Below are positions 3,018 to 50,697 of a DNA stretch of 64,000 bases, piece after piece; positions within the stretch are counted from its first letter, which is position 1, and each line of letters opens with the position of its first letter. This DNA is from Salinivirga cyanobacteriivorans (lineage in GTDB: Bacteria > Bacteroidota > Bacteroidia > Bacteroidales > Salinivirgaceae). The notes beneath the pieces are model-generated. The model was not told where the DNA came from. It worked only from the letters and a program-made list of their open reading frames with translations, and made no database searches. The DNA is taken from the NCBI RefSeq assembly GCF_001443605.1, contig NZ_CP013118.1, forward strand, positions 1,561,501-1,625,500, written 5' to 3'. A program made the position numbers and the translations under genes.

Positions 3018-3743
3018 ATGAGAAAATTTCTATCCTTATTCGTAATACTGGTGTTACCAGTTGTCACATTAAGCCAGGCACCCGACTTCACAATGACATC
3101 AACTTCGGGCGAAACTTATAATTTGCAGGATCAGCTTGATTCGGGCAAAACAATAGTTCTCGATTTCTTCAGCACAACCTGTGGTACCTGTCAAACAGGC
3201 GTACCAACCGTTGAGAAAATATGGAACGACGTTCTCTTAAACGGTGATAAAGGATGGGTTTGGGCCGTGGAAATAGGATACCACAACGAAACTCAAATTG
3301 ATGAATTTTTCAATGAATATGGAGGCACATTCCCGGCCTTTTCTGTGGTGGAAGATGATAGCATAATCAACCCGGACTACGGTTTTGATGTGCCATATGC
3401 TCCCCAATACTTTGTAGTTTGCCCCGATGGGAAATATAAAAATGTAGCATTAAACATGGTAGAATCTGAGGTTGATAGATGCGCACAACAAACAGGCATA
3501 AAAAGTAACACCTACCAGATTGCAATCCATACACTGCCCAACAGTTTTTTGGTTGCAAACCTGCCCTATTCATATGGTGATATTCAGGTTCGGGTAATTA
3601 ATACAATGGGAAAAACCGTTAGTAGCGACATTATAAGTGGCAGTGTGCACAACTGGCAATCGCCAGAACTTAAAAAAGGAATTTACATCATTCAGGTTTC
3701 AGGGCAAGGCAACTTACATTTTGCGCAAAAAGTGGCGCTTTAG
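3018..3743 (+). CDS. Secreted thioredoxin-fold protein with T9SS type A-like sorting tail
   Basis: This is a predicted thiol-disulfide oxidoreductase delivered to the cell surface or medium. Residues 1-19 form a signal peptide (MRKFLSLFVILVLPVVTLSQ). A TlpA/AhpC-like domain follows, with the active-site motif FFSTTCGTCQTG (Cys-Gly-Thr-Cys near residues 56-59) and a cis-proline region, DVPYAPQYFVV. The last 70 residues form a beta-rich domain ending GIYIIQVSGQGNLHFAQKVAL, the pattern of Por/T9SS type A C-terminal domains. Its 3' end overlaps the convergent LpxH-like gene by 4 bases. CGTC is less common than CxPC in this family, so substrate and direction of electron flow are unclear. Confidence 0.85.
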   Translation: MRKFLSLFVILVLPVVTLSQAPDFTMTSTSGETYNLQDQLDSGKTIVLDFFSTTCGTCQTGVPTVEKIWNDVLLNGDKGWVWAVEIGYHNETQIDEFFNEYGGTFPAFSVVEDDSIINPDYGFDVPYAPQYFVVCPDGKYKNVALNMVESEVDRCAQQTGIKSNTYQIAIHTLPNSFLVANLPYSYGDIQVRVINTMGKTVSSDIISGSVHNWQSPELKKGIYIIQVSGQGNLHFAQKVAL

Positions 3744-4480
3744 TCTGCCTGGTATTTTTCCAAATGCATTTGCTCGCCATCCCAGTAAGCGTAAGAGAAA
3801 TGATTTAACCAATCGCCCAGGTTTACATAAGTGGCTTCGCCAACCTTATGATGCACCGGAAAGTGTCTGTGACCAAAAATGTAGTAATCGCAATGTTCGT
3901 TTGCTTCATGGTTTTTAATAAATGAAACAAGGTGCTCCTTTTCCGGATTATAATCTTCGGTAGCAAACCCTTTGCTGTAGCGGCTATGTTTGGACCATCG
4001 GTGCGCAAAGCCTACAGCTCCGTTTGGGTGAAGCCGGGCAAATAACCATTGTAGTACTTTATTTGTAAAAATACCTTTCAGCAATTTATATCCCACATCA
4101 CCTGATCCCAAACCATCGCCATGCCCGATAAAAAACTTTTTCCCATCAATTTCCTTAATGATTGGTTTCCTGTGCACATGAACCCCAATTTCTTTCGGTA
4201 AATAATCGAAAACCCACACATCATGGTTTCCTGTAAAAAAATGCACGGGCTTTCCGCGGTCAGTAAATTCTGCAAGCTTACCTAAAAAACGTGTAAATCC
4301 TCTTGGAACAACATGTTTATACTCAAACCAAAAATCAAAAACATCGCCCAAAAGGTACAGTTCATCGGCCTGATCTATAATATCGTCGAGCCACTTTACA
4401 ACTTTTCGCTCGCGGTGAATACTCTCCTCCTGGCGGGGAAAGCCCAAATGCATATCTGAAGCAAAATAAATCTTCGGCAT
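3740..4480 (-). CDS. lpxH: UDP-2,3-diacylglucosamine diphosphatase (LpxH-like metallophosphoesterase)
   Basis: LpxH cleaves UDP-2,3-diacylglucosamine to lipid X and UMP at the cytoplasmic face of the inner membrane in lipid A synthesis. The 246-residue protein has the full calcineurin-like metal set: SDMHLG at the start, GDVFDFW near residue 45, GNHD near 84, HGD near 119 and GHRH near 203. Length and the absence of a signal peptide fit LpxH. It is followed after 3 bases by nothing on its strand and preceded 3 bases upstream by the TlpA-type lipoprotein gene, so it is probably transcribed from that gene's promoter. An LpxG/LpxI-type alternative is unlikely. Confidence 0.82.
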   Translation of the reverse strand: MPKIYFASDMHLGFPRQEESIHRERKVVKWLDDIIDQADELYLLGDVFDFWFEYKHVVPRGFTRFLGKLAEFTDRGKPVHFFTGNHDVWVFDYLPKEIGVHVHRKPIIKEIDGKKFFIGHGDGLGSGDVGYKLLKGIFTNKVLQWLFARLHPNGAVGFAHRWSKHSRYSKGFATEDYNPEKEHLVSFIKNHEANEHCDYYIFGHRHFPVHHKVGEATYVNLGDWLNHFSYAYWDGEQMHLEKYQAD

Positions 4481-4483
4481 AAA

Positions 4484-5653
4484 CTATTTCTTGGCAAAAA
4501 TCTCCTCTAATTTTTTCCCCAGGCTTGGGCCACGCAGATTTCGAGCTACAATTTTTCCTTCGGGGTCGATCAGGAAATTAGACGGAATAGACCTTACATT
4601 GTACAATTTAGCTGCTGAAGACTGCCAAAACTTAAGATCACTTACATGTTTCCAATTCTTAAGACGGTCTTTATAAATAGCCTGTACCCAATCGTCACGA
4701 TTACGGTCCAATGATACCTGGTATATATCAAACCCTTTCCACTTATATTTCCAGTAAGTTTTAACAAGGTTCGGATTTTCAATACGGCATGGCTTGCACC
4801 AGGATGCCCAGAAATCGAGCAGCACATATTTGCCCCTAAGCGACGAAAGTTTAACAGTATCTCCCTGTGGGTTAGGCAAGGCAATATCGGGTGCTATGGC
4901 CCCAACACTTAACCTCTGACTTGCCGTTTGACGGCGCTCCTCCTGAGATTTAACCTTCCGTATAAAATTACTTATGAGGCTGCTCATTCTCGAATTTTCA
5001 TAACGGCTTGCAAGCGCTGTATCTACCATTTCAAAATATTTCATATCATCCTGAGGATCGAAAAGCGGCTCATTTGAAAGGCGCATGGAGAGCGCCACGT
5101 ATGAAGCAAGTGGGCTCTTATTCTCTTCTATAAAATTTACAAGGTAGTCACGCTCCTTTTGAAAAATTTCCTGACTTTGCTGTTGCAGTTCAGGGATTAG
5201 TTTTTCAAGGCCCGGGCTTCCTTCATTGGCTTTATACACCATATTAAGACTGTCGACAATACTATTGCTGTGCAAATTATGCTGAATAACATCCCGTACT
5301 GCTTTACTGGAGGTTGACCCCTCAATACGGTAGCTTGTAGCCAAATCACTGGCATCTGCAGTAATCTGAACCTGTTGATCAGGAAGCAGAATAAGTCTGA
5401 TAAAGTTTTGCTGATCTAAATACAACACATAATCCGTAGGCTGGTCTACCTCAATATCAAAAACAAAATCGCCATTGGCATTAATAGCAACCGAGTCTGG
5501 CTGGGCATTCTTTTCCAGCAAATTCATCAAATAGATTGTCTCATTATTAGCACCGTAAATGGTCCCCTGAATTTCCGGACCCTTCGATTCTTTATTGCAA
5601 GCACTTAAAAACAGTAAAATTACTGCAAACAAAACTGTAAACCTCATATTCAA
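4484..5653 (-). CDS. TlpA-family thiol-disulfide reductase lipoprotein (DUF4369 + thioredoxin domain)
   Basis: The signal MNMRFTVLFAVILLFLSAC has a lipobox at Cys19, so this is an envelope lipoprotein. Residues about 25-120 resemble the DUF4369 domain (IQGTIYGANNETIYLMNL). A helical linker follows, and the C-terminal 140 residues form an AhpC/TSA-thioredoxin domain with WASWCKPCRIENPNL, a classic reducing CxPC-type site, and a cis-proline VRSIPSNFLID. The layout is the usual Bacteroidota TlpA-like reductase, thought to keep exported or cytochrome-related thiols reduced. It lies 3 bases from the LpxH-like gene, probably in one transcript. Confidence 0.9.
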   Translation of the reverse strand: MNMRFTVLFAVILLFLSACNKESKGPEIQGTIYGANNETIYLMNLLEKNAQPDSVAINANGDFVFDIEVDQPTDYVLYLDQQNFIRLILLPDQQVQITADASDLATSYRIEGSTSSKAVRDVIQHNLHSNSIVDSLNMVYKANEGSPGLEKLIPELQQQSQEIFQKERDYLVNFIEENKSPLASYVALSMRLSNEPLFDPQDDMKYFEMVDTALASRYENSRMSSLISNFIRKVKSQEERRQTASQRLSVGAIAPDIALPNPQGDTVKLSSLRGKYVLLDFWASWCKPCRIENPNLVKTYWKYKWKGFDIYQVSLDRNRDDWVQAIYKDRLKNWKHVSDLKFWQSSAAKLYNVRSIPSNFLIDPEGKIVARNLRGPSLGKKLEEIFAKK

Positions 5654-18573: not shown

Positions 18574-18970
18574 GGGGCCGACATGGTTTTGACAGCAGGT
18601 TGAATTGGTACGTAAGCATGCCGGGTTTTGTATATTTCCCGTAAAAAGAATGTTCACACTTTTTTTAATTGGCAACAATAATTATGCGCTCGCAGCGTAA
18701 TCAGGCAAAGCCGGTTACTGCTTAATCCACGACTACAATAGGTCGGGACGAGTCACTCCCGGATGGTGTTTCCCGATACCGGTCCGATAAGGAGTGCCAG
18801 AAGTTTGGGATAGCTTTTACGGCGCCGCGACGTAGGAGCGAAATTCAGCGGATAAGGTCAGTTTGCGGGTGTCCATACCCTGATCTGACCCGACAATTAA
18901 GAATGGACTAAGCATGTAGAAAGCGTATGGGTTGCCTGTCTGGACGCGGGTTCGACTCCCGCCGGCTCCA
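18574..18970 (+). ncRNA. ssrA: Transfer-messenger RNA (tmRNA)
   Basis: tmRNA rescues stalled ribosomes and tags the nascent protein for proteolysis. The 5' end GGGGCCG pairs with CGGCTCC at the 3' end (18963-18969), with discriminator A at 18970; CCA is not encoded. The T-arm GCGGGTTCGACTCCCGC is clear. The tag reading frame runs 18671-18700: GGC AAC AAT AAT TAT GCG CTC GCA GCG TAA, giving (A)GNNNYALAA. The ALAA end is the ClpXP-type degron. The length of about 397 bases is normal. Repeat E1 begins two bases after the 3' end, so the tmRNA borders the accessory stretch. Confidence 0.95.
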
Positions 18971-18971
18971 C

Positions 18972-19036
18972 TGAATACAGTTCGAGTGTGAGTAGTGAGC
19001 AAGAATACTCCTTACTCAACTCTAACTCAAACTGTA
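18972..19036 (+). repeat. Imperfect hairpin repeat E1 directly behind tmRNA
   Basis: Bases 18976-19036 form a long imperfect hairpin: TACAGTTCGAGTGTGAGT on the left against ACTCTAACTCAAACTGTA on the right. The first 28 bases (18972-18999) recur at 19697-19724 with 26 of 28 identical. Confidence 0.7.
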
Positions 19037-19054
19037 ACACAAAAAGAGTAAAAA

Positions 19055-19116
19055 TACAGTTTGAGTGTGAATAGAAACAGGAGAAAGGAAACTCTTTACT
19101 CAATTTTTACTAAAAC
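19055..19116 (+). repeat. Degenerate hairpin repeat E2
   Basis: It begins TACAGTTTGAGTGTGA, nearly the E1 left arm, and includes AAGGAAACTCTTTACTCAA, a core shared with E3 and with the 148-bp repeats. The right arm is weakly complementary. It ends just before the four-helix-bundle ATG at 19122. Confidence 0.5.
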
Positions 19117-19121
19117 AGCTT

Positions 19122-19466
19122 ATGTTTGATTTCGAAAAGCTCTCTGTCTATCAAAAAGCCAAAAGGTATAATAAAAATGTTGCCGGCTTTTTGGCCAGCA
19201 CAAAAACTGACCGTACAACTAACGACCAACTTCGAAGAGCAGCTTTCAGTATAATGCTTAATATTGCAGAAGGTGCTGGCAGATTTACCAATGCAGATAA
19301 AAGAAACTTTTATGTAATTGCCCGTGGCTCAGCATTTGAATGTGTGGCCATTTTTGACTACCTTAAAGATTGCGATACAATAGAAGAAACTCAGTACACA
19401 GCATTCTATCATGAACTTGAAGAAATCTCTAAAATGCTCTTTGCACTCATTAAATCACTTAAGTAA
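19122..19466 (+). CDS. Four-helix-bundle protein (S23 / rRNA intervening-sequence protein family)
   Basis: The 114-residue protein has the family marks: FEKLSVYQKAKRYNKNVAGF at the N-terminus, DQLRRAAFSIMLNIAEGAGR in the middle (residues 36-55) and DKRNFYVIARGSAFECVAIF after it. Relatives are encoded in 23S rRNA intervening sequences, beside diversity-generating retroelements (Avd) or as solitary genes. Their role is nucleic-acid binding where known. Here it is solitary, with hairpin repeats E1/E2 upstream and E3 downstream and a GIY-YIG remnant 12 bases after its stop, an arrangement suggestive of a small mobile element. Confidence 0.88.
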   Translation: MFDFEKLSVYQKAKRYNKNVAGFLASTKTDRTTNDQLRRAAFSIMLNIAEGAGRFTNADKRNFYVIARGSAFECVAIFDYLKDCDTIEETQYTAFYHELEEISKMLFALIKSLK

Positions 19467-19477
19467 ATACAGTTTAA

Positions 19478-19699
19478 ATACGAGCACATAAAATAATTAA
19501 ACTCTACACCGGCTGTACCTCAAACCTTAAGAACAGACTAAAAGCCCATAATTTGGGTAAAGTTAAATCTACAAAAACAAGGCTTCCCACAAGTTTAATC
19601 AGTGCTACAGCCTTTACAGATAAATACAAAGCTTACAAATCCGAAAAGTACCTCAAATCGGGCTCTGGAAGAGCTTTTGTAAAACGCCATCTGATTTGA
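19478..19699 (+). pseudogene. GIY-YIG endonuclease remnant lacking its N-terminus
   Basis: The reading frame ending at the TGA 19697-19699 gives KLYTGCTSNLKNRLKAHNLG, then KVKSTKTRLPTSLISATAF and YKSEKYLKSGSGRAFVKRHL. These are the middle and end of solitary UvrC-like GIY-YIG proteins. The first beta strand with GIY/VYIL is missing and no start codon precedes it in frame; a stop lies just upstream (about 19476). The gene is therefore a 5'-truncated remnant. Its stop codon lies within repeat E3. Confidence 0.75.
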
Positions 19700-19764
19700 A
19701 TACAGTTCGAGCGTAAGTAGTGAGTAAAAGTAAGGAAACTCATTACGCACACTAAAACTGCAGT
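19697..19764 (+). repeat. Imperfect hairpin repeat E3
   Basis: Its left 28 bases match E1 at 26 positions. The left arm CAGTTCGAGCGTAAG and the right arm CATTACGCACACTAAAACTG can pair imperfectly around an AAGGAAACTC core. With E1 it brackets the four-helix-bundle gene and the GIY-YIG remnant as direct repeats 725 bases apart. Confidence 0.65.
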
Positions 19765-24368: not shown

Positions 24369-26345
24369 TTATTTCACTGGTATACCTAAACCCTTTAGGT
24401 ATTTGAACGTTGAGTCATAATACTCAGGTTTTCGTGTGTGATCATCTATGTTCCCTTCTGGAATAACTATTATCATACCTTGTCTTGCTCGTGTCAATAA
24501 TACCCTATAAGCATTTATTAAATATTTTTTTCTATCTTCTTTATGGATGTTTTGCCATTTAGACCCTACAAAAGAAAATGTTTTCCAACCATCCGTTGAG
24601 TATCTTAAATCTCCATCCCAAGCAATGCAAGCCCAATCTAACTCAAGGCCTTGAACATGAATTCAGTAGCTACATCCTCTATATAAAACGAGGATCTTAC
24701 ATCTTCTTTATCATTTAAAAACAAATGAACCGGATTCATAGGAGATTTCACATCAATTGCAAATGGCTTCAATCTTTGTGCTTGTGACGATACGACGATA
24801 CCATACCTTTCACTACCCCTGGCCTTCTTCTTAAGCCATTCTTTAGCCTTTATTAAGTCTCTAGTGAGGACAATAGGATATTTATCTTTTAGTTTCAAAT
24901 AGGTTTCTTTAGCTTTTGCTTGATTCATATCCAGCACATTTTTAACAAAAAGGGATAAGTTTTCTGCTCTAAATGAGCGCATTGAAACACCAAGATGCAA
25001 TTCAGAATTTAAGCTTACATTAGTCTTCAGTTGCAACTCTGATATGACATTAGCAGCAGAATATTCAGACTCAGTAAGATTAGGCGAAATAAAAACATCC
25101 CAATATGAAAAACGATTCTTGATAGCGTTCAACCATTCAGAAATACCAGCCTCACCTGTATTTATTTCTTGTCCACCTCCAACTAAGCAGACTATAACTG
25201 CCCAATCTTGATGGCGATCAAGACATGATATAAGAAACTCAGGTTCTGAATACTCAAAGTTATGCTGACCTTTTTTTTTGCCTCATGAATTTTACTGTTT
25301 GTTCCCTGCTCCAAGCTCTTTGAGCTTCATCAAATATGGCCACATGGTCATAAGGTGCCTTAGGATCAACCAAATATGCATCTCGATAATGATGAATGTT
25401 TTGAACAAAAGTTTTAACACTTGATTTAGCCTTTCCTTTTGTCAGTTTAATCCCATTAGCCTTTTCATTTTTTATTTTATCTCTTGCTAAAGCTTCTTGA
25501 AGTATCGCTACCAACGGCCCATTACCTGATAAGTATACACTTGCGTTACCATTTATTTCATCAAGATGTGAAGTAGCTACTTTTAACCCAACCAATGTCT
25601 TTCCAGCTCCAGGAACTCCAGTAACAAAACAAATTATTTTTCGCTTTTCCTGTTTTGCTGTTGCTATTATTTTTGATATTGTTGATGTAGTTTTAGTTAA
25701 ATTTTTTGCTTCAGCATCACTTCTGGTTATTTCATCTACGGTATGGCTATTATAAAGAGTTAATGCTGCTTCAACAATTGTTGGAGTTGGATAGTAGCGC
25801 CCTTTGGCAAAATGATCTGGATGTAATTCATGAGCATCACCAAAAAATTCTATAGTACGACCAATTACGGTCCGGAACTCTTCTTTATTTACTTTTATTG
25901 GTAACGATAAATTATCCTTATGAGATGTTGTTAATATCTCCACTGATGAATATTTGGCTTCAGTCGCAACCAAAATTGGAACCAAAAAAGCCTTATGGCT
26001 TGGTTCGTGAAAATTTTTGAGGTCTAGTGCATAATCCCATACTTGCTCCAAGTTTGAGCGATTGTAATTATGCTCTCCTACTTTAAACTTAATAACAAAT
26101 ACAACCCCATGAATGATTGCAAGAACGTCAACTCTCTTGCCCATTCTCGGTATTGAGAATTCAAAAAATATAGTTCCTTCAATATTTTCAAAAGCATCTC
26201 TCAAAATTGATATTTGAACCTCCCATGACTTATTCTGAGCCAATGTGGAATCATATTGATTGGCTAAAGAAATTTCGCCAATAATCTCTTCAGTGTTTTT
26301 TGTAAGGAAAGCTTGAATACTATCTTTAAAATAATAATTCAGCAT
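24369..26345 (-). pseudogene. DUF2075 (Schlafen-group-like) DNA/RNA helicase gene with two frameshifts
   Basis: The first segment (26345 to about 25270) has an N-terminal nuclease-like part (KRVDVLAIIHGVVFVIKFKV), Walker A FVTGVPGAGKTLVGLKVA and Walker B VAIFDEAQRAWSREQ. After MRQKK the frame is lost at a run of nine A where eight would continue into [20 protein letters not shown] and [16 protein letters not shown]. The frame is lost again near 24650, where one base is missing before [18 protein letters not shown]. The end INAYRVLLTRARQGMIIVIP with its helicase arginine stops at 24369. All parts of a DUF2075 protein are present, so inactivation is recent, or the indels are sequencing errors. 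DUF2075 proteins are often found in defence neighbourhoods. Confidence 0.82.
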
Positions 26346-26696: not shown

Positions 26697-29251
26697 CTAG
26701 TGTGCTGTGATGTGCAATTTTTTCAGGGTATGGTGTTCGGTTGTGTTGATTTTCAACAGGTACATGCCCGGCTTCAGGTGGGCGGTGGCAACCTGGCCCG
26801 TGGGCTGATTCACCTTTGTGGTGGCGACTACCCGGCCTGCCAGGTCGTAAATTGTAACCGACTCTATGGTTGCAGCGGCTGTGTACCGGATGTTTTGGCC
26901 CTGTGGTAGTGGATTGGGATATACCGACACGGTGCGGTTTTGTAATTCGCCTGTACCTATTGGGTCGTAAGTTACACTCACCTCATTCGATTGCCCGGAT
27001 TCGCCCTCAGCATAGGTGGCTGAAATGTAATAGGTGTAGGTTTGCCCGTCGGTTAAATTCTGAATGTCGTCATAGGTAGTTTCATCAATATTTGAAATGT
27101 TATGTACTTGCGCATCGTCGCGATAAATGTTGTAAGCCACAAAACCGGAATCGCTCACCGGGTTCCACTCCAGGTGGATATGATCTTCAATAGCTTCTCC
27201 TGTAAGATTTTGAGGTATTTCGAGCACACTGGTTTGTTCGGCTGCAATAATTTTCACATTGTCTACAGCATTGTACCAGGCCCAGGTGTCGTTGTCGTCG
27301 TAATAAAAGGCCAGTTGGGCGGTTGCAGTAAGTGCCGCTTCGGGCAATTCTATATTGTGCGTGGTAAACCCGCTTGTGGAGCTGAGTGCTTCAAGCGTTA
27401 TCCAGGCATCGCCGGGTGAGGTGCGGTACACCACGCTAAATTCATCGCTGCTATAATCGCGCCAACCATAATCAAACTCCAAATATGCCACCGAATAAAT
27501 GGACAGGTCAATTTCGGGCGAAATGGCATAATCTACCACGTGCGTTCCGGAACCTACATCGTCGGAATCGGTGCTGAGGTAATTGGTATTGTTGCCACTC
27601 AGGTTAACCGGTACGCCCCAGCGCCAGCCGGTATTGTCATCTTTTATGGTCCAGCCCTGTGTGCCATCTTCAAAATCCCAGAAATGGGTTTGCATGAGGC
27701 CCATGGTAACCGAAACCGTATTGCTTGGGTTCGATTCTCCGCCATTCTCACCGGTGTAAGCAGCTGTTACATAGTAATTGTAGGTAACACCGTTTTGAAT
27801 TGTATTGTCCACATAAACCGTATCGTCAATATTATTGATAGTAGCTATTATTTCATCGTTGCGGTACACATGGTATGCCTCAAAATTGGTTGTACCGTCG
27901 ACGGGCGTACTCCAGTTAAGGTCAACATTGTTTTCATTTTGCACCAACGCCAGCTCCATGGGTGGATAAAGACCATTGAACAGTTCTGCTGCGGTAGCTA
28001 CAAATGCCACGCCGGCCTGGGTAAACTTTTGTGCCAGTGTGGGATTGTTCACAGATGGCCCGATCAAATCATTGTCGGAATGGATATGCGGGCTGTAATT
28101 TTCTGAATCTTCAAAGGGGAAAATGCCCATAAACCCATTATTGTTGAATGATGTGTGATCGGAGTCACCGCCAATTAAGGTGCCTTCATTTACTGCAAAA
28201 TCAGTTACATACAAACCCACAACAGTTTCATACAGGTCAACCAGTGGTTGAGCAGATGAAGGGGCCATCATGTCGGTATGGTAGTCGCTGCCTTCTTGCA
28301 GGTAGCCGATCATATCAAGGTTCAGGTAGCCTACGATATCCATTCCTGCGTCAGCGGCATTTCCGGCCCACTCGCCACTACCTACCAGGCCAATCTCTTC
28401 TGCCGACCAGGCACAATAAATTATGGTGTAATTGAAAAGCTTCTGACTCAGGATGCGCGCAATTTCAATCACGCCTGCAGTACCGGAAGCATTATCATCT
28501 GCACCGGGGGCATCTTCGTCATAACTGGTAGAATCGAAATGGCCGCCCACAACGATATACTTATTGGGATAAACGGCGCCCAGCTGGGTGGCAATCACAT
28601 TTTGGCACCATCTGCTCCGGCATAAAGCACTTCTGTCGACAGGCCATATCTTTCAAACTGTGCCTGAATCCAATCCTGGGCTTCGATGGCTTCGAGAGAG
28701 TTATATTCACGCGTACCGTAATCTTCCATGTGCTGAATATCGGCCATAATGCTGTCGGCCTGTACGGCAGCCACCATATTTTCGATGGTGGTATCTGCAG
28801 TCCGCAGATCGTAATTGAATTGCTGCATTTGGGGTAAACGCACCGGGTGCTGCTGAATTTTCACCAGACCACCATGCAGAGCAACATTCAGCTGATTTAT
28901 TGCTTCGGTAGTGGACTTCACTATGGCAATTTGATCATCTTGATAAACCATGTTGAATTGGTTGGCTATTTTTTCAATATATCCGTCAGCTTCTTTCAAA
29001 GGAAGCCACACAAGATAGTAGTCTTCGTGATTTCCCCAGGCATTTTTTTCAACCAGTTGCTTCGTATATTTTTCACCCACATCACCACTTGCAATACAAA
29101 AAACATCGTTATAGTAGTGTACAGCCACATTTTCAGTCTCAACAAGTGTAGAGAGCTTTTTAGTGTTGTCCAGGTGGACCTTGTAAAGATTTTGTGAAAA
29201 TGCATTGATAACCAATGCAATTAAAAAGAAAGTAAATACTAATTTTCTCAT
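26697..29251 (-). pseudogene. Secreted M28 aminopeptidase with Fn3 domains and T9SS type A tail, one frameshift
   Basis: The start is the ATG at 29251 (signal MRKLVFTFFLIALVINAFSQ). The first 218 residues are followed by a frame loss at 28598: AGADGAK is followed by ATG TGA, whereas one extra A in the AAAA run would read KNVIATQLGAVYPNKYIVVG. The second part has the M28 zinc-ligand motifs VGGHFDS, APGADDNASGTAG, WSAEEIGLVGS, LNLDMIGY and DHTSFNNNGF. Two fibronectin III-like domains flank a MAM/immune-inhibitor-like domain (FWDFEDGTQGW), and the type A sorting tail (VYPNPLPQGQ to LKPGMYLLKI) closes it. The whole would have about 850 residues. Everything except one base is intact. Confidence 0.85.
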
Positions 29252-29411
29252 AGCTTTTTTGTTTGGATTTAAGAAATTTTTGAACTCGCTTCGAACCAGC
29301 GCCTGTCGCAGCACAACCGGTTTACATACAGCAATTTCAGGGATTCAAGATATGAAAATCCTTTATTATTACAAAGTTTTGGATGGTAAAAACCAGTTAT
29401 CTGCAGAACTA

Positions 29412-30102
29412 GCTGAAGCCGCGTGTAAGTTAGCTAGTTTGTTTATATTGTTTATCGCCTGACAGGCATGCATGGCTTTTAGTCTCGTAAAATTTGAAAC
29501 ACGGATTAAGTGGTTAAATCCAATAAAAAATATACGAAGTAGAATAATTTCAGCGTATGTAGCGCTATGCGCTGGTGCCAGAAATATCATAGATAAACGG
29601 ATTAAGACGGATGCCGTTTTAGGTTTTATTCGCGATAATCCGTCTATCAACGATATCGAATCTTAAGTACTGAATTAGGTATGTGTTTAGCAAAAAATTG
29701 AAAAGAAAACACAAGCCATAAATAAATCAATCAGTTTAATCCGTGTTCTATTTTAATCGGTACGTTTTCAATAGTACCTGAATGATTCCCGTATCTACAC
29801 TGGCGCCGATAATTGTGTCCCGTTTACAATTTATGAAACATCGCGGCGAGTCTGTTTTGGGAACCAAAACACCCGGCTGAAGCCGGGTGCAAGTTAGCTA
29901 GTTTGTTTATGTTGTTTATCGCCTGACAGGCAGGAATGGCTTTTAGTCTCGTAAAATTTGGAACACGGATTAAGTGGTTAAATCCAATAAAAAATATACG
30001 AAGTAGAATAATTTCAGCGTATGTAGCGCTATGCGCTGGTGCCAGAAATATCATAGATAAACGGATTAAGACCGATACCGTTTTAGGTTTTATTCGCGAT
30101 TA
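29412..30102 (+). repeat. 464-bp repeat, copies 1 and 2 (left block)
   Basis: The marker AACACGGATT (written here with its flanks) occurs at 29498 and 29962, exactly 464 bases apart. Copy 1 is complete; copy 2 is cut at about 30102, after TTTTATTCGCGAT, ahead of the Tricorn protease gene. Each unit carries the hairpin CACCCGGC/GCCGGGTG and inverted TAATCCG words. Short ORFs inside it appear on both strands in every copy and are not taken as genes. Confidence 0.9.
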
Positions 30103-30233
30103 CCTGTTGCCAACAATAATTATTCTTAAATGTAGATTCAATATTTGCGTGACCACAAAACCTGGTTTACATTAATCTCTGTACTTATTCGGACAGTTTT
30201 CATTATAGGTCAAAAACAAGTTTGATATTTTCC

Positions 30234-30241
30234 TACCTTTG
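30234..30241 (+). promoter_or_regulatory. Promoter -7 element for the Tricorn-type protease
   Basis: TACCTTTG fits TAnnTTTG, 26 bases before the ATG at 30268. The unique spacer between the truncated repeat and the gene (30103-30267) therefore holds the promoter. Confidence 0.55.
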
Positions 30242-30267
30242 AAAACCCGTTAGATTGTTTCTGAATA

Positions 30268-33200
30268 ATGAAAAACACAAATAAAATGAGAGCTATATTT
30301 TTACTTATCACACTGACTCTGAGCCAATTAGCCAATACAAACACAGACTGGATGCGTTATGCGTCTATTTCGCCCGACGGAAAACAAATTGTTTTTACAT
30401 ATAAAGGCGACCTCTACCTGGTTTCGGCAAATGGCGGCGATGCCAAACCATTGACTTTCCACAAAGCACACGACTACGAAGCGGTATGGAGTCACGACGG
30501 CTCTAAAATTTGCTTTGCTTCGAATCGCTACGGCAATTTTGATTTGTTTATAATAGATACCAATGGTGGCCAGGCCAAACGACTTACTTTTCACTCTACA
30601 GATGAAGTGCCCTACTCTTTTTCGCACGATGACAAACACATTTTTTTTGGTGCGCAGCGCCTCGATGCAGCCAGTCACAGACAATACCCCACCAGTTCGC
30701 AGCCCGAACTCTACAAAGTGGCCGCTGCAGGCAGTAATGTAAAACAGATCTGGACCATTCCTGCTCAGGATGTACAAATAAGCAGCAACGGCAGCACAAT
30801 GCTTTATCATGATAAAAAAGGCGGCGAAGACAAATTCCGCAAACACCACAAATCTTCTATCACACGGGATATTTGGAAATACGATGCAAGCACGCAAAAA
30901 CACACAAAACTTACCACTTTTCGAGGCGAGGACCGAAACCCGGTATTTGCGCAGGACGAAAATGAATTTTATTTCCTCAGTGAGCGCAATGGATCGTTCA
31001 ATGTACACAGTATGAATATTGAAAATTCCGGTGAAGTAAAACAGGTCACAAACTTTATTCCTCATCCGGTGCGTTACCTGAGCATATCCAAAAATGGGAC
31101 ACTCTGCTTCACATACAACGGTTCCATTTACACAAAAACAGGTGATGCAGCCCCTGAAAAAATCAACATAAATATTCGCACAGAAGCCAAAGAAAATCCT
31201 TTGCAACTGGTAAATGTGCAGGGAAATATAAGCGAAATGGCTATTTCACCCAATGGCAAAGAGGTTGCATACATTGTGCGTGGCGAAATATTTGTTTCTT
31301 CGGTAAAAGGTGAAATGCACAAAAGAATTACCGAAACACCTGCCCGGGAGAGATTTGTGAGTTTCTCGCCCGATGGCGAACATATTCTTTATGCCAGCGA
31401 GCGCAATGCCAAATGGAGTATTTATCAGGCATCGAAAAAAAACAGCGATGAACCGTACTTTTTTGCATCAACATTAATAAAAGAAGAGGCGCTGATTGAA
31501 AAGGAAAACAATAATTACCAACCAAAATATGCACCTGACGGGGAAAAAATTGCCTTTATTGAAAACCGGCGCACACTAAAAATCTTAAACCTGAAAGATA
31601 AAACCACCAAAACACTGCTCGACAAAGATAAACTATTGTACATGAGCGAAGGTGACCAGTATTTCACCTGGAGTCCCGACAGCAAATGGCTGCTGGCAGA
31701 ATACTCTCCGGTTCTGGCCAATACCGAAGTCTTGCTGGTTTCAACAGAACACCAGGACTCAATCGTCAACCTAACGCAAAGCGGATATGGCGATTATAAT
31801 CCCAAATGGGTTAATGGCGGCAAACAAATTCTCTGGTTCAGCGATCGGCACGGATTGCGCTCTTATGCCAACAGCGGTTCACGCCAATTGGATGCCTATG
31901 CCATGTTTCTTACAGAAGCCTCATGGGACAGGTTCAACCTGAGCAAAGATGAATATGCGTTGCTCAAAGAAATTGAGGAAAAGAAAAAAGAAGACAACGA
32001 AAAAGAGAAAAAACGCATAAAGAAAAAATACAAAGAAGATAAGGCCGATAGCCTCACCGTAAAATTTGATTGGAATGGATTGCGCGATCGTAAAAAACGC
32101 CTTACCATACACTCCTCGAAACTCGGCGATGCTGTTTTATCGAAAGACGGACAAAAACTATTTTACCTGACACGCTTCGAGGAAAATATGGACCTCTGGC
32201 AAACCAACTTACGCACCAAAGAGACTCAAATGCTGATTGAACTGGGCGTAAGATATGGAAGCCTGAAATGGGACAAAAAAATGGAAACACTCTTCTTACT
32301 GGCGGATGGAAAGGTTTATACCATCGACCCCGAAAAGGAGCGTAAGAAAAAAGTATCACTCGGAGGTGAAATGATGCTCGATGTAGTTGCCGAACGCCAG
32401 CAAATGTTCGATCATGTTTGGGAACGCAACAAAGGCATGTTCTACATTTCTGATTATCACGGTGCCGACTGGGAAATGCTGCGAAAAAACTACGAGCCCA
32501 AACTCCAATCGATTGGCAACGATTTCGAATTTGTTGAACTACTTTCTGAAATGCTCGGAGAACTCAACGTATCGCACAGCGGTGCCAGATACCGTTATAA
32601 AGCGCCCGATAGAGACCAAACCGCTGCGCTGGGCATTTTTATGGATTACAACTTTGACGGGCCCGGAATCAAAATTGCAGAAATCATAAAAGGCGGACCG
32701 CTTGACAAGCATGACCTGGAGGTTTCTGCGGGTATGGTTATTACAAAGTTAGACGGAAAAACAATTGACAACAAAACCGATAACGCAAAATATCTGAATC
32801 GAAAAGCTGGTAAATACACAGCTTTAACCCTACTCGATCAGTCGAGCGGCAAAGAAAAAAACATTACGGTTAAACCCATTTCCCGCTCAAAAGAAAAACG
32901 ACTTATGTACGAGCGCTGGGTACGTAAAAACGAAGAAGAAGTTGCCAAACTTAGCAACGGAAAACTAGCCTATGTACATATTCCCGGCATGAGCGATGGC
33001 CCGTACCGCAATACATACGAAAAAGTAATGGGCAAATATTACGAATGCGACGGCCTCATTGTAGACACCCGCTTCAACGGTGGTGGCGACCTGGTAGGCG
33101 ACTTGAGCATGTTCCTCACCGGTGAAAACTTCATGCAGTATGCCATTGAAGATCGCACAGTAGGATACGAACCGGCATTTCGCTGGACAAAACCTTCGGT

Positions 33201-33513
33201 TGCGATAGTAAACGAAGCCAATTACAGCGACGGACATTGTTTTTCGTGTATGTACAAAGATCTGGGCATTGGCAAACTCATTGGCATGCCGGTTCCGGGC
33301 ACATGTAGTTTTGCAGGATGGGAAATGTTGCAAAATGGCAAGGTGCTCTGGGGATCCATTCCGGTAAGCGCCAAAAATAAAGCCGGCGAATGGCTTGAAA
33401 ACAATGAAACCATGCCCGATGTACAGGTGAAAAACATGCCCGGCAAAATCGACAAGGGAATAGACCAACAATTGGAGCGCGCCGTAGAAGAATTGCTAAA
33501 GGTTACGAAATAG
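30268..33513 (+). CDS. Tricorn-type S41 serine protease (beta-propeller, PDZ, S41)
   Basis: Tricorn-like proteases degrade peptides, often downstream of larger proteases. After a signal-like segment (MRAIFLLITLTLSQLANTNT) come PD40/TolB-like propeller blades (ASISPDGKQIVFTYKGDLYL, WSHDGSKICFASNRYGNFDL, FSPDGEHILYASERNAKWSI). A charged Lys/Glu helix lies near 570-600, a Tricorn C1-like region near 700-780, and a PDZ domain near 790-870 (GGPLDKHDLEVSAGMVITKL). The S41 core follows with LIVDTRFNGGGDL, the nucleophile region NEANYSDGHCFS and GMPVPGTCSFAGW. The 1081-residue length is normal. The gene is intact between two blocks of the 464-bp repeat. Confidence 0.92.
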   Translation: MKNTNKMRAIFLLITLTLSQLANTNTDWMRYASISPDGKQIVFTYKGDLYLVSANGGDAKPLTFHKAHDYEAVWSHDGSKICFASNRYGNFDLFIIDTNGGQAKRLTFHSTDEVPYSFSHDDKHIFFGAQRLDAASHRQYPTSSQPELYKVAAAGSNVKQIWTIPAQDVQISSNGSTMLYHDKKGGEDKFRKHHKSSITRDIWKYDASTQKHTKLTTFRGEDRNPVFAQDENEFYFLSERNGSFNVHSMNIENSGEVKQVTNFIPHPVRYLSISKNGTLCFTYNGSIYTKTGDAAPEKININIRTEAKENPLQLVNVQGNISEMAISPNGKEVAYIVRGEIFVSSVKGEMHKRITETPARERFVSFSPDGEHILYASERNAKWSIYQASKKNSDEPYFFASTLIKEEALIEKENNNYQPKYAPDGEKIAFIENRRTLKILNLKDKTTKTLLDKDKLLYMSEGDQYFTWSPDSKWLLAEYSPVLANTEVLLVSTEHQDSIVNLTQSGYGDYNPKWVNGGKQILWFSDRHGLRSYANSGSRQLDAYAMFLTEASWDRFNLSKDEYALLKEIEEKKKEDNEKEKKRIKKKYKEDKADSLTVKFDWNGLRDRKKRLTIHSSKLGDAVLSKDGQKLFYLTRFEENMDLWQTNLRTKETQMLIELGVRYGSLKWDKKMETLFLLADGKVYTIDPEKERKKKVSLGGEMMLDVVAERQQMFDHVWERNKGMFYISDYHGADWEMLRKNYEPKLQSIGNDFEFVELLSEMLGELNVSHSGARYRYKAPDRDQTAALGIFMDYNFDGPGIKIAEIIKGGPLDKHDLEVSAGMVITKLDGKTIDNKTDNAKYLNRKAGKYTALTLLDQSSGKEKNITVKPISRSKEKRLMYERWVRKNEEEVAKLSNGKLAYVHIPGMSDGPYRNTYEKVMGKYYECDGLIVDTRFNGGGDLVGDLSMFLTGENFMQYAIEDRTVGYEPAFRWTKPSVAIVNEANYSDGHCFSCMYKDLGIGKLIGMPVPGTCSFAGWEMLQNGKVLWGSIPVSAKNKAGEWLENNETMPDVQVKNMPGKIDKGIDQQLERAVEELLKVTK

Positions 33514-33741
33514 CTTAAAATTTAGCTATAAACATCACCGCAACGGGTAGGTGATTAATAAACAGGCTTTCCAATCGGTGATCTGCAGAATGTTATAATA
33601 GTATTGGACTCCTCCGGAGTCCTTGTATACCTTTTTCACATAAAATCTACAAATATGTAAACCCTCCGGGTTTAAGAAATGCACCAAACTGGCGCCGATT
33701 TAACTTCGCTAAGGTTGACTGCGTGAACTCGAGTAAATTGG
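33514..33741. other. Spacer between the Tricorn gene and the right repeat block
   Basis: No gene is seen. Two short palindromes occur: GGACTCCTCCGGAGTCC near 33606 and AACCCTCCGGGTTT near 33659. They resemble the ACCCCTCCGGGGT hairpin behind rpe and may be one family of small intergenic hairpins. A degenerate repeat edge (TGGCGCCGATTTAAC) precedes copy 3. Confidence 0.5.
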
Positions 33742-35788
33742 AACACGGATTACGCGGTTAAATTCAATATAAAATATACGAAGTAGAATAAATTCAGCGT
33801 ATGTAGCGCTATGCGCTGGTGCCAGAAATATCATAGATAAACGGATTAAGACGGATACCGTTTTAGGTTTTATTCGCGATAATCCGTCTATCAACGATAT
33901 CGAATCTTAAGTACTGAATTAGGTATGTGTTTAGCAAAAAATTGAAAAGAAAACACAAGCCATAAATAAATCAATCAGTTTAATCCGTGTTCTATTTTAA
34001 TCGGTACGTTTTCAATAGTACCTGAATGATTCCCGTATCTACACTGGCGCCGATAATTGTGTCCCGTTTACAATTTATGAAATATCGCGGCGAGTTTGTT
34101 TTGGGAACCAAAACACCCGGCTGAAGCCGGGTGCAAGTTAGCTAGTTTGTTTATGTTGTTTATCGCCTGACAGGCAGGAATGGCTTATGGTCTCATAAAA
34201 CTTAGAACACGGATTACGCGGTTAAATTCAATATAAAATATACGAAGTAGAATAAATTCAGCGTATGTAGCGCTATGCGCTGGTGCCAGAAATATCATAG
34301 ATAAACGGATTAAGACGGATACCGTTTTAGGTTTTATTCGCGATAATCCGTCTATCAACGATATCGAATCTTAAGTACTGAATTAGGTATGTGTTTAGCA
34401 AAAAATTGAAAAGAAAACACAAGCCATAAATAAATCAATCAGTTTAATCCGTGTTCTATTTTAATCGGTACGTTTTCAATAGTACCCGAATGATTCCCGT
34501 ATCTACACTGGCGCCGATAATTGTGTCCCGTTTACAATTTATGAAACATCGCGGCGAGTCTGTTTTGGGAACCAAAACACCCGGCTGAAGCCGGGTGCAA
34601 GTTAGCTAGTTTGTTTATGTTGTTTATCGCCTGACAGGCATGCATGGCTTATGGTCTCATAAAACTTAGAACACGGATTAAGTGGTTAAATCCAATAAAA
34701 AATATACGAAGTAGAATAAATTCAGCGTATGTAGCGCTATGCGCTGGTGCCAGAAATATCATAGATAAACGGATTAAGACGGATGCCGTTTTAGGTTTTA
34801 TTCGCGATAATCCGTCTATCAACGATATCGAATCTTAAGTACTGAATTAGGTATGTGTTTAGCAAAAAATTGAAAAGAAAACACAAGCCATAAATAAATC
34901 AATCAGTTTAATCCGTGTTCTATTTTAATCGGTACGTTTTCAATAGTACCTGAATGATTCCCGTATCTACACTGGCGCCGATAATTGTGTCCCGTTTACA
35001 ATTTATGAAACATCGCGGCGAGTCTGTTTTGGGAACCAAAACACCCGGCTGAAGCCGGGTGCAAGTTAGCTAGTTTGTTTATGTTGTTTATCGCCTGACA
35101 GGCAGGAATGGCTTTTAGTCTCGTAAAATTTGGAACACGGATTAAGTGGTTAAATCCAATAAAAAATATACGAAGTAGAATAATTTCAGCGTATGTAGCG
35201 CTATGCGCTGGTGCCAGAAATATCATAGATAAACGGATTAAGACCGATACCGTTTTAGGTTTTATTCGCGATAATCCGTCTATCAACGATATCGAATCTT
35301 AAGTACTGAATTAGGTATGTGTTTAGCAAAAAATTGAAAAGAAAACACAAGCCATAAATAAATCAATCAGTTTAATCCGTGTTCTATTTTAATCGGTACG
35401 TTTTCAATAGTACCCGAATGATTCCCGTATCTACACTGGCGCCGATAATTGTGTCCCGTTTACAATTTATGAAATATCGCGGCGAGTTTGTTTATGTTGT
35501 TTATCGCCTGACAGGCCTGCATGGCTTGTAGTCTCGTGAAATTTAGAACACGGATTAAGCGGTTAAATTCAATATAAAATATACGAAGTAGAATAAATTC
35601 AGCGTATGTAGCGCTATGCGCTGGTGCCAGAAATATCATAGATAAACGGATTAAGACGGATACCGTTTTAGGTTTTATTCGCGATAATCCGTCTATCAAC
35701 GATATCGAATCTTAAGTACTGAATTAGGTATGTGTTTAGCAAAAAATTGAAAAGAAAACACAAGCCATAAATAAATCAATCAGTTTAA
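33742..35788 (+). repeat. 464-bp tandem repeat, copies 3 to 7 (right block)
   Basis: The marker AACACGG occurs at 33742, 34206, 34670, 35134 and 35547. The first four intervals are exactly 464, 464 and 464 bases; the last is 413 because copy 6 lacks 51 bases spanning the CACCCGGC hairpin. Copies differ by scattered substitutions such as CGGTTAAATTC/TGGTTAAATCC and TACC/TACT. In each unit AACACGGATTA and TAATCCGTGTT stand as inverted ends of a 250-base segment. Copy 7 is split by the IS701 element. Confidence 0.92.
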
Positions 35789-37298
35789 TTCTACTTTAAC
35801 ACATTTATTGTTTTGAATAACAGTAATCTATATCCCGTTGCCTTTTTTTGTGTCGATGTTCCAATTTTTCCAACATACGCTCATCTGTCATTTCACGGTA
35901 AAACTTATATACCAAAAAATCCATGATGTCCCTTGCAGAAAGCAATGGAATCTGGTCCTGATTTAAAATTTTCTCCTTTAACATAAAACTGCCTACAATC
36001 ATATTTAATGCAACTTGATGATACCATGATTTCCATTTACGAGTCTGAAAATGGTCCATCCCCAATATTTGCTTTTGTTCTTTGAAACTGTGCTCTATAA
36101 AAAAACGCTGTGCCTGCATATATGCCAGTGCTTGTTCGGTGTACTGGACAAGTTCGGCATTTGTGAATGAATATTTAGTCTCTACGCAATCATTTGTTTT
36201 TCTTTTCGAAACAACCAATAAACGTTTTTCAACGGCATTGGAGGCTTTGTCCCAAATGTAAACAGTCTTGAAATGAAAGAGCCCCTTGAGTTTGCCTTTT
36301 GCAGAATCGCGAATATTTAATTTCTTCCAATCCTTTGCGGACAGGGTTTTAATGTAGGTGTCGGCATTAACTGCTGATGTACTTGCTTTTAGCTTTTTTG
36401 GGGCGCGCCCCCGATTACTCTTGCGTTCGGGCAAATAAAGTTCTGGCTCTTCTAAATATATCTTTTGATTACTATGAATATCAAGCATATAAATTAAGCC
36501 CAAATCAGCCACAGAACGGGTAAATACAATGTCATTTCCATATAGGCCATCCGCTCCAACGTAATCAAATGATATACCCATTTCAAGTTGATGCTTTACT
36601 ATTTCTGTTGCCAACTCTGGTTTTGTGCGGAAAATCCTATCTTCACGGGGTATACCTGCAGCTTCACATCTACCCTGATCATCGATCCATGATTTTGGTA
36701 AATAAAGCCTGGTATCGACCAACGAGGCGTATTTGTCATTACAAAGGCAGCCAAAAACGGCTACCTGTGAGTTTGCTGTTTTTCCTACATTCCCACAATA
36801 CTGATGATCAACACCAACGCTTTTCTTTCCCTTTTTAACCCAACCACTTTCATCGATGAGTAGTCCTGTTAACTTCCGATTGGGCAATGCTTGGTCTACA
36901 TTTTTTGCAGTTTGATCGATGACAGCCCGAGCATCCCAGTTAGATTCTGTTATGAAATGCTGCATCTGATGATAGTTGGCATTCAATGTTTCACTTATGC
37001 GTTCTATGTTTTTCAAATCGCTTAATGCAAGTCCTTCGACATATTGAGAGGCTTTATCGAAGTTTGTCTTTGTTTTATTTTTGAAAAAATACTCATATTC
37101 AGACAAATACACTTCAAGACGGTCGTTAACCGCAAGCAGTGTTTTACCATTGTTATAATCTTTTTTTAAGTGATTCGCTCGTTACCCATTGCAAATAAAA
37201 TTACATTTTTTTAACATGCGCAATATACTAAATGTTAACGGATTATCACTGTTATTCACTTAAAATAACTTCGTTTTTTTTAATCTGTTAAAGTAGAA
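35789..37298 (-). mobile_element. IS701-family insertion sequence, 1510 bp
   Basis: The ends are inverted repeats TTCTACTTTAACA(C/G)ATT. The element is flanked by TTAA on both sides (35785-35788 and 37299-37302), which occurs once in uninterrupted copies of the repeat. A 4-bp YTAR duplication is typical of IS701. It encodes one transposase on the minus strand. The element is complete and its target is exactly reconstructable. Confidence 0.93.
35805..37112 (-). CDS. IS701-family DDE transposase
   Basis: The 435-residue protein shows IS701 signatures: NYHQMQHFITESNWDARAV, the first catalytic Asp in LTGLLIDESGWVKKGKKSVG, HQYCGNVGKTANSQVAVFG, RLYLPKSWIDD and the second Asp in FDYVGADGLYGND. The C-terminal catalytic Glu is in QRFFIEHSFKEQKQILGMDH. 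The frame is open upstream for about 24 codons without ATG. The GTG at 37112 is used here, though a more upstream CTG cannot be excluded. The stop is 16 bases from the left end of the element. It looks intact. Confidence 0.92.
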   Translation of the reverse strand: MYLSEYEYFFKNKTKTNFDKASQYVEGLALSDLKNIERISETLNANYHQMQHFITESNWDARAVIDQTAKNVDQALPNRKLTGLLIDESGWVKKGKKSVGVDHQYCGNVGKTANSQVAVFGCLCNDKYASLVDTRLYLPKSWIDDQGRCEAAGIPREDRIFRTKPELATEIVKHQLEMGISFDYVGADGLYGNDIVFTRSVADLGLIYMLDIHSNQKIYLEEPELYLPERKSNRGRAPKKLKASTSAVNADTYIKTLSAKDWKKLNIRDSAKGKLKGLFHFKTVYIWDKASNAVEKRLLVVSKRKTNDCVETKYSFTNAELVQYTEQALAYMQAQRFFIEHSFKEQKQILGMDHFQTRKWKSWYHQVALNMIVGSFMLKEKILNQDQIPLLSARDIMDFLVYKFYREMTDERMLEKLEHRHKKRQRDIDYCYSKQ

Positions 37299-37452
37299 TT
37301 AATCCGTGTTCTATTTTAATCGGTACGTTTTCAATAGTACCCGAATGATTCCCGTATCTACACTGGCGCCGATAATTGTGTCCCGTTTACAATTTATGAA
37401 ACATCGCGGCGAGTCTGTTTTGGGAACCAAAACACCCGGCTGAAGCCGGGTG
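37299..37452 (+). repeat. Remainder of repeat copy 7 behind the IS
   Basis: TTAATCCGTGTTCTATTTTA resumes the repeat exactly where the IS entered it and continues to the CACCCGGC/GCCGGGTG hairpin. The following 267 bases (37453-37719) hold no gene; around 37635-37715 words such as TTTTATTCGCGAAAACC suggest an older decayed copy. Confidence 0.85.
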
Positions 37453-37719
37453 TAGTTATAATTCCTCATCAAACATCAATTTAACTCCTTTAAGCCCCTC
37501 TCTGTTTTGGTTATTATCATTGCGCCAAAAATTAAGCCCGTAAAAAACCTCCGTTGCGTTCGCTGCGTGAAAAATTAAAAATGTGTCGATTTACCTTCGG
37601 TAAGTTTGACTGGACAGGATCCTGGTTAAAACAGCACACGTATTAGGCGGTGTAATTCGGTTAAACAGAGCAATGCGGATAACCTTTTCAGTTTTATTCG
37701 CGAAAACCTATTTGCTAAC

Positions 37720-49848: not shown

Positions 49849-50116
49849 CGTTATTTAAAATGGAATTTTTGCATCCAATTAAAGAAGTCAAACAAAAATT
49901 CCCTGTTTTCTTCAGATACTTCTAACCAAAGGTTAATTTTCATTAATCAAAACCCATATCGCGATGCTTAAACATTTCATGGCATCAGGGTCATTAGGCA
50001 GGCCGAGTCAAAGTCGCCTGGGTCTCTAAGTTTTGGCTCTCAATATCCCGGGGCCAGGCTCACTGCTGTTTTGTAAATTACATATTTCCGTTTATAAAAA
50101 TAGTGTGCAACGATAT
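49849..50116. other. Gene-free region before the 271-bp tandem repeat
   Basis: Together with the repeat this is a stretch of about 850 bases without a gene. Apart from a 12-bp palindrome AATAACGTTATT over the preceding stop codon (49844-49855) I see nothing distinctive. Confidence 0.5.
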
Positions 50117-50676
50117 CAGTTCACTACGTTCCTGATATTATTACTGTTTCAACTGAGTTTCTTTCGACGAAAGTTCTTGAAGCTTGCCTGTATCCCGATA
50201 CGCTGCGCTATCGGGGATTAATTCAATCCATATTCAGTAATTAAAATTGCAGAATCGATTATGAAAATGTAAACCAATTGTGTTCACAATTGCTAACATT
50301 TTCTATATCGGGATTAACACTCATAAAATCATTAATTCTGATCTGGTGATCATCATAATGATTAATTCGTGTTTAACCGACACAGTTCAGTTCACTACGT
50401 TCCTGATATTATTACTGTTTCAACTGAGTTTCTTTCGACGAAAGTTCTTGAAGCTTGCCTGTATCCCGATACGCTGCGCTATCGGGGATTAATTCAATCC
50501 AAATTCAGCAATTAAAATTGCAGAATCGATTATGAAAATGTAAACCAATTGTATTCACAATTGCTAACATTTTCTATATCGGGATTAACACTCATAAAAT
50601 CATTAATTCTGATCTGGTGATCATCATAATGATTAATTCGTGTTTAACCGACACAGTTCAGTTCACTACGTTCCTG
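50117..50676 (+). repeat. 271-bp tandem repeat (two full copies and a stub)
   Basis: CAGTTCACTACGTTCCTG occurs at 50117, 50388 and 50659, spaced exactly 271 bases. The two full units differ at only about three positions. Each contains hairpins such as CTTTCGACGAAAG, ATCCCGATA/TATCGGGGAT and CAATTGT/ACAATTG. The third start is followed after 18 bases by the SRP RNA region. Confidence 0.9.
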
Positions 50677-50697
50677 AACTGTGGGTTTCATTAAAGA

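Follow-up and report, generated by a model that had tools for sequence, protein, structure and literature searches.

The window analysed here, a stretch of 64,000 nucleotides from Salinivirga cyanobacteriivorans, contains a series of 464-bp units arranged head to tail in two blocks on either side of a Tricorn-like protease gene (Table 1). When the copies and their coordinates were re-derived, the 464-bp spacing and the two-block layout of the original prediction were recovered, as were the copy with a 51-bp deletion (w6), the last copy resuming behind an insertion sequence (w7) and the intact Tricorn gene as the only gene between the blocks. The satellite-like character ascribed to the array was borne out by the head-to-tail order and constant period of the units. 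The announced number of seven copies has to be qualified: the repeats are present, but this count takes in incomplete ones, the array being made of four full units, a shorter one (413 bp), another that the insertion sequence splits, and two partial units. Identity among the 464-bp units is 97-100%, and the array reaches a TRF score of 3338, far above chance. An assembly artefact is an unlikely source of the array, because the genome is a single 4.81-Mb contig, the copies carry distinct variants and an insertion sequence lies within one of them. A tblastn match at 81% to a metagenome-assembled genome of the Salinivirgaceae placed the genome within or close to this family.

Table 1. Features of the 464-bp array and its surroundings (window coordinates).
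Feature	Position	Strand	Remark
Partial unit: right end only, first in the left block	29412-29490	+	blastn to unit positions 386-464, 92%
Complete 464-bp unit w1	29491-29954	+	
Partial unit w2, ending at unit position 146	29955-30100	+	variants as in w6
Older diverged element copy, continuing w2	to ~30150	+	nhmmer 29916-30150, 175 bits
Intact Tricorn-like protease gene	30268-33513	+	1081 aa
Diverged native left flank of element, preceding the right block	33703-33734	+	
Complete 464-bp unit w3	33735-34198	+	
Complete 464-bp unit w4	34199-34662	+	
Palindromic core of w4	34203-34458	+	outer stem GAACACGGATTA/TAATCCGTGTTC, inner stem, hairpin
Complete 464-bp unit w5	34663-35126	+	
413-bp unit w6 with 51-bp deletion	35127-35539	+	variants = a unit of the 3.80-Mb array
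Unit w7, first part, broken by the insertion sequence	35540-35788	+	
IS701-family insertion sequence, 1510 bp	35789-37298	-	transposase 35805-37112; TTAA target duplication
Unit w7, second part	37299-37452	+	ends at hairpin CACCCGGCTGAAGCCGGGTG
Degenerate single copy of element	37590-37718	+	nhmmer E 7e-5 and 7e-4

Two genes to the left of the array, a Schlafen-group-3 helicase-type gene near it (24638-26345) and an M28 peptidase gene adjoining it (26697-29314), each appear to be broken over two reading frames, by a frameshift or as a pseudogene. Further on in the window, an intergenic tandem duplication unlike the 464-bp unit (50116-50677; 271 bp x 2.1, 98%) adjoins an apparent SRP RNA gene.

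The array is real but not confined to the window, since a search of the organism's own genome with the unit gave matches at some 60 places. At least nine tandem arrays carry a palindromic core of about 256 bp, GAACACGGATTA...TAATCCGTGTTC, with periods between 328 and 1033 bp (464, 413, 330, 328, 422, 842, 386-425, 384 and 1033 bp at the nine sites), and the further sites are single copies. The arrays are intergenic, lie beside unrelated genes and are found in convergent as well as divergent gaps. Exact copies of the 12-mer GAACACGGATTA number 41 in this genome, compared with 0-4 per genome in 40 relatives, and a reversed-pattern control gave 0-1 in those relatives. Two further long arrays (L015, 3283-5346, and L016, 2364-3317) are built partly on another motif (CTCCAAACTCGCA / TTTGGAGTGCGAGTTGCGAGC), with a short CGGATTAA piece of the core inside. 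The window unit is 98% identical to an array located 2.2 Mb away, at 3.80 Mb, and the two arrays have units with identical variants in common; more diverged forms of the unit build additional arrays. Units are 97-99% identical within an array and only about 75-80% identical between arrays. Such concerted evolution is typical of passive tandem repeats, and the window has a second, unrelated tandem duplication; both would fit a passive satellite, in other words ordinary intergenic DNA that replication slippage or unequal crossing over has duplicated without the help of a mobile element.

Alignment of units from different arrays showed that the core ends GAACACGGATTA...TAATCCGTGTTC are conserved while the spacer varies, the 464-bp unit having 204 bp of extra spacer. 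In the consensus fold, each of the 10 pairs of the outer stem is kept in 9-10 of 10 sequences, and the fold also retains a second, inner stem (ACTGATT/AATCAGT) as well as a hairpin in which paired bases have changed on both sides. Folded as single-stranded DNA, the core does better than 198 of 200 shuffled sequences (z -2.5). Its ends are terminal inverted repeats, as in miniature inverted-repeat transposable elements (MITEs). No clean target-site duplication was identified for the element and no DDE partner was seen. The region gave no match in an Rfam search.

The core of unit w4 is homologous to both gene-less and gene-bearing elements of another locus of this genome, L017. This locus is a single tandem array in which two copies of the core have a GxxExxY gene lodged between their halves and several others lack it. 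The genes score 111 bits against the GxxExxY profile (TIGR04256 / PF13366), whose curated cut-off is 35, and another GxxExxY gene of the genome, L052, scores 138 bits to PF13366. Both gene copies of L017 are read in two frames over a poly-T run, which leaves the N-terminal motif out of frame; as they appear frameshifted, these array-borne copies may be dead. A copy of the IS701-family insertion sequence, 99.7% identical to that of the window, lies inside the same array (3672-5181), with a TTAG duplication in place of TTAA. Other GxxExxY genes of the genome are also found among tandem palindromic units, of 82-118 bp. Both the ends and the core of the 464-bp unit can be aligned with the gene-bearing element. 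No remnant of GxxExxY was detected in the unit by hmmsearch, nor is one demanded by a gene-less origin, and no remnant of a four-helix-bundle gene of the 23S rRNA intervening-sequence (IVP) type was found in it. Because the same core is present with and without the GxxExxY gene in one array, the 464-bp units are most likely gene-less relatives of the GxxExxY element, amplified by recombination.

Eight residues of the GxxExxY protein (G22, G24, E27, Y30, D66, E76, K78 and Q90) are invariant in 68 sequences, and the putative active site (D, E-x-K, Q) is at least 98% conserved in 118. Sequence searches gave no significant relative in the PDB. The AlphaFold model (pLDDT 92.9) matches best the Cas4 protein SSO0001 (E 6e-5; Z 9.9), followed by other PD-(D/E)XK nucleases. 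GxxExxY is thus predicted to be a minimal Cas4/lambda-exonuclease-like PD-(D/E)XK nuclease with a conserved active site, and this fold suggests a role on DNA ends or single strands. No phage record with GxxExxY was found, and anti-phage defence models gave no match.

GxxExxY is present in half of the 148 Bacteroidota genomes searched. In a sample of 118 genes from this phylum, the DNA within 160 bp of the gene often forms an inverted-repeat pair. The inverted similarity between the two flanks had a median z of 4.0 for 117 GxxExxY genes, versus -0.3 for 10 Tricorn genes; other reading frames used as control had a median z of 0, yet 4 of 16 exceeded z 4, perhaps owing to neighbouring elements. 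By the score used, a clear palindrome is lacking at about 40% of the GxxExxY loci, and the arms are degenerate. Arms and protein are inherited together: with the analysis limited to pairs of genes from different taxonomic families, the fraction of pairs with similar flanks (above 99.9% of the null) climbed with protein identity, from 1% at identities below 50% through 6% and 15% to 32% above 65%. This rise was matched in none of 1000 permutations, and flank similarity fell to 0-2% beyond 160 bp. Since similarity tracks the protein between families and is gone beyond this distance, the sequence comparison indicates that the gene moves together with its arms, as one compact piece, through different surroundings. 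These include what we take to be, from a reading of the neighbouring frames, sdhC/sdhA, a histidine kinase/regulator pair and a pump/outer-membrane gene. One GxxExxY gene lies between fabD and fabG according to the annotation of its record.

In the protein tree, two GxxExxY genes of the genome under study (L052 and L053) belong to a clade of 13 with a support of 100/98. The window motif GAACRCRGAT is present at 10 of these 13 loci and at 3 of the 105 others (Fisher p 8e-10, a somewhat optimistic value, the motif having been picked after two of the clade loci were seen). A GxxExxY gene on a Fusobacteriota plasmid, found without use of the motif, is nearest to the same clade (64% identity to L052), and AATCCGTGTACC, a close version of the clade motif, stands on both sides of it. 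CACAGAG arms are clear at Bernardetia and Bacteroides plasmid GxxExxY genes. Genes of Gemmatirosa, Sphingomonas and Treponema (Gemmatimonadota, Alphaproteobacteria and Spirochaetota) have similar short flank repeats with weaker arm scores. These results bear on the passive origin of the array mentioned above, in which any likeness to the flanks of GxxExxY genes would be incidental. Core ends and stems are conserved across arrays whose spacers differ, the core exists with and without the gene, its motif matches a protein clade in other families, and the 98% likeness of arrays 2.2 Mb apart requires transfer. We therefore consider a passive satellite unlikely.

Further evidence comes from a single genus, in which the same two flanking genes enclose a palindrome with GxxExxY in four species and the palindrome alone in a fifth. 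In the gene-less species the break is at a repeated arm half, ATTCTGCTTCA. The gene-less palindrome and the gene-bearing element are therefore two states of one site; the gene may have been lost or gained, the repeated arm halves speaking for loss. For two other GxxExxY insertions (L063 and L060), a search for empty sites yielded no orthologues in the same genus.

Arms of a similar style also flank genes of the four-helix-bundle family (IVP of 23S rRNA), in this genome and in relatives, so that palindromes of this kind might not be exclusive to GxxExxY genes. One such gene (TIGR02436 / 23S rRNA IVP-type) lies in the window itself at 19122-19466, beside an apparent tmRNA; it stands between palindromic arms with a motif of their own, ATACAGTTTGAGTGTGAGTAGTGAGC...CTAACTCAAACTGTA (region 18960-19745), and is followed within this region by a degenerate GIY-YIG-like reading frame. 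A gene enclosed in a long stem does resemble the 23S rRNA intervening sequences, and the palindrome could accordingly be a transcribed, structured RNA, processed like the stems of those sequences, with GxxExxY as cargo or as an RNA-acting protein. The folding of the core beyond that of shuffled sequences and the hairpin with pairs changed on both sides would fit such an RNA. Against it speak the lack of an Rfam match, the location of elements in convergent and divergent gaps alike and a protein fold nearest to DNA exonucleases, and we regard an element acting at the RNA level as rather improbable. As for the 464-bp units themselves, they lie between protein genes and have no IVP match, and were not classified as 23S rRNA intervening sequences.

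The Tricorn gene was proposed to have been inserted into the array. In its simple form this is unsupported by the block ends, which fail to close into one unit: the left block breaks off within an older, diverged copy (unit position 146), and the right one starts at position 1 after a different diverged flank. In relatives, Tricorn occupies another neighbourhood, beside a thioesterase-like gene, with no match to the 464-bp unit. Relocation of Tricorn through the arrays was considered and set aside, since the thioesterase-like gene of the relatives was not found in this genome, leaving no donor site. The other suggestion, that Tricorn could be lost or amplified through the array, would be possible in view of the direct repeats that flank the gene (29412-30100 and 34584-35272, 98.5% identity over 689 bp). 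The same repeats could be taken to mean that the arrays were selected as recombination substrates varying Tricorn dosage; but the arrays recur at eight other loci next to unrelated genes and Tricorn is single-copy at this identity (the next best match in the genome being 26%), which makes such a device very improbable. As the block ends do not close, relatives keep Tricorn elsewhere and the array family occupies many loci, we regard Tricorn as a probable bystander, situated between two element sites of older date, each of which became an array. The main point was overlooked in the original prediction: the unit is a palindromic element, dispersed and linked to the GxxExxY nuclease family, with no relation to Tricorn.

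On balance, we think it probable that the 464-bp units are non-autonomous copies, lacking the gene, of a palindromic element that has a GxxExxY gene in its full form. In the full form, the gene would lie in the loop between inverted arms, and the element would arrive as a compact piece, the gene with about 160 bp of arms per side, with a nuclease adapted to the arm motif of that same element. Many copies would have lost the gene when repeated halves of the arms recombined, leaving palindromes. In this genome, palindromes together with a short spacer would have been amplified head to tail by unequal recombination or replication slippage, gene conversion keeping the units alike within each array, and the palindromes may also have reached further intergenic places in which older copies were already present. 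The blocks on either side of Tricorn would be two such places flanking one gene. The steps that we infer are the cutting of the arms by the nuclease, the movement of the element that results from it and the way in which the arrays grew.

Several known systems share features with this element. Like REP/REPIN sequences and their RAYT (TnpA-REP) partner, it consists of many short intergenic palindromes per genome with a partner nuclease gene flanked by the palindrome, and in both cases the protein subfamily and the palindrome diversify together. In contrast, the partner here is a Cas4-like PD-(D/E)XK protein (PF13366) whereas RAYT is an HUH Y1 tyrosine transposase, the arms have a greater length and short internal periods, and there are tandem arrays of hundreds of bp. 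REP sequences are described as palindromes of 20-40 bp with a GTAG or CGTC tag (PMC3733652), to be compared with a core of about 256 bp; by this size, and by the lack of an HUH transposase, the element was not assigned to the REP/RAYT class. MITEs, too, are small, do not code for protein, end in inverted repeats and have a coding relative, but here no DDE transposase partner was seen, no clear target-site duplication was identified, and tandem copies are many. The 23S rRNA intervening sequences with IVP genes (PF05635) also hold a small gene between complementary arms, and in this genome IVP genes with palindromic arms occur outside rRNA as well; by contrast, family models show no relation of GxxExxY to IVP, and GxxExxY lies between protein genes. 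Finally, bacterial long tandem repeats and VNTR-type satellite arrays have head-to-tail units homogenised by recombination, but here the unit contains an element whose ends are conserved and which has a relative with a gene. The open-access literature searched contained no description of a GxxExxY palindromic element, although absence there is no proof of novelty, and nothing on PDDEXK_3; GxxExxY is mentioned in passing in one paper and is also named in one on a Chrysochromulina virus genome.

The presence of the same kind of element in very different bacteria suggests a widespread, little-noticed family of selfish hairpin DNA. More tentatively, and with a chance that we put slightly below even, GxxExxY genes would mark widespread, undescribed, hairpin-bounded selfish elements in at least five phyla, whose Cas4-like nuclease recognises and propagates its own arms, diversifies with them and leaves behind gene-less palindromes able to become satellite arrays. 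These results offer an origin, open to testing, for the tandem arrays of a bacterial genome, together with a candidate function for the common nuclease-like protein GxxExxY. Should the nuclease act on the arms, the system would resemble REP while relying on another enzyme family, and many of the short-period repeats (CACAGAGAACACAGAG, CTTTGCGTTCTTAGCG and others) found beside GxxExxY genes in very different bacteria would be accounted for.
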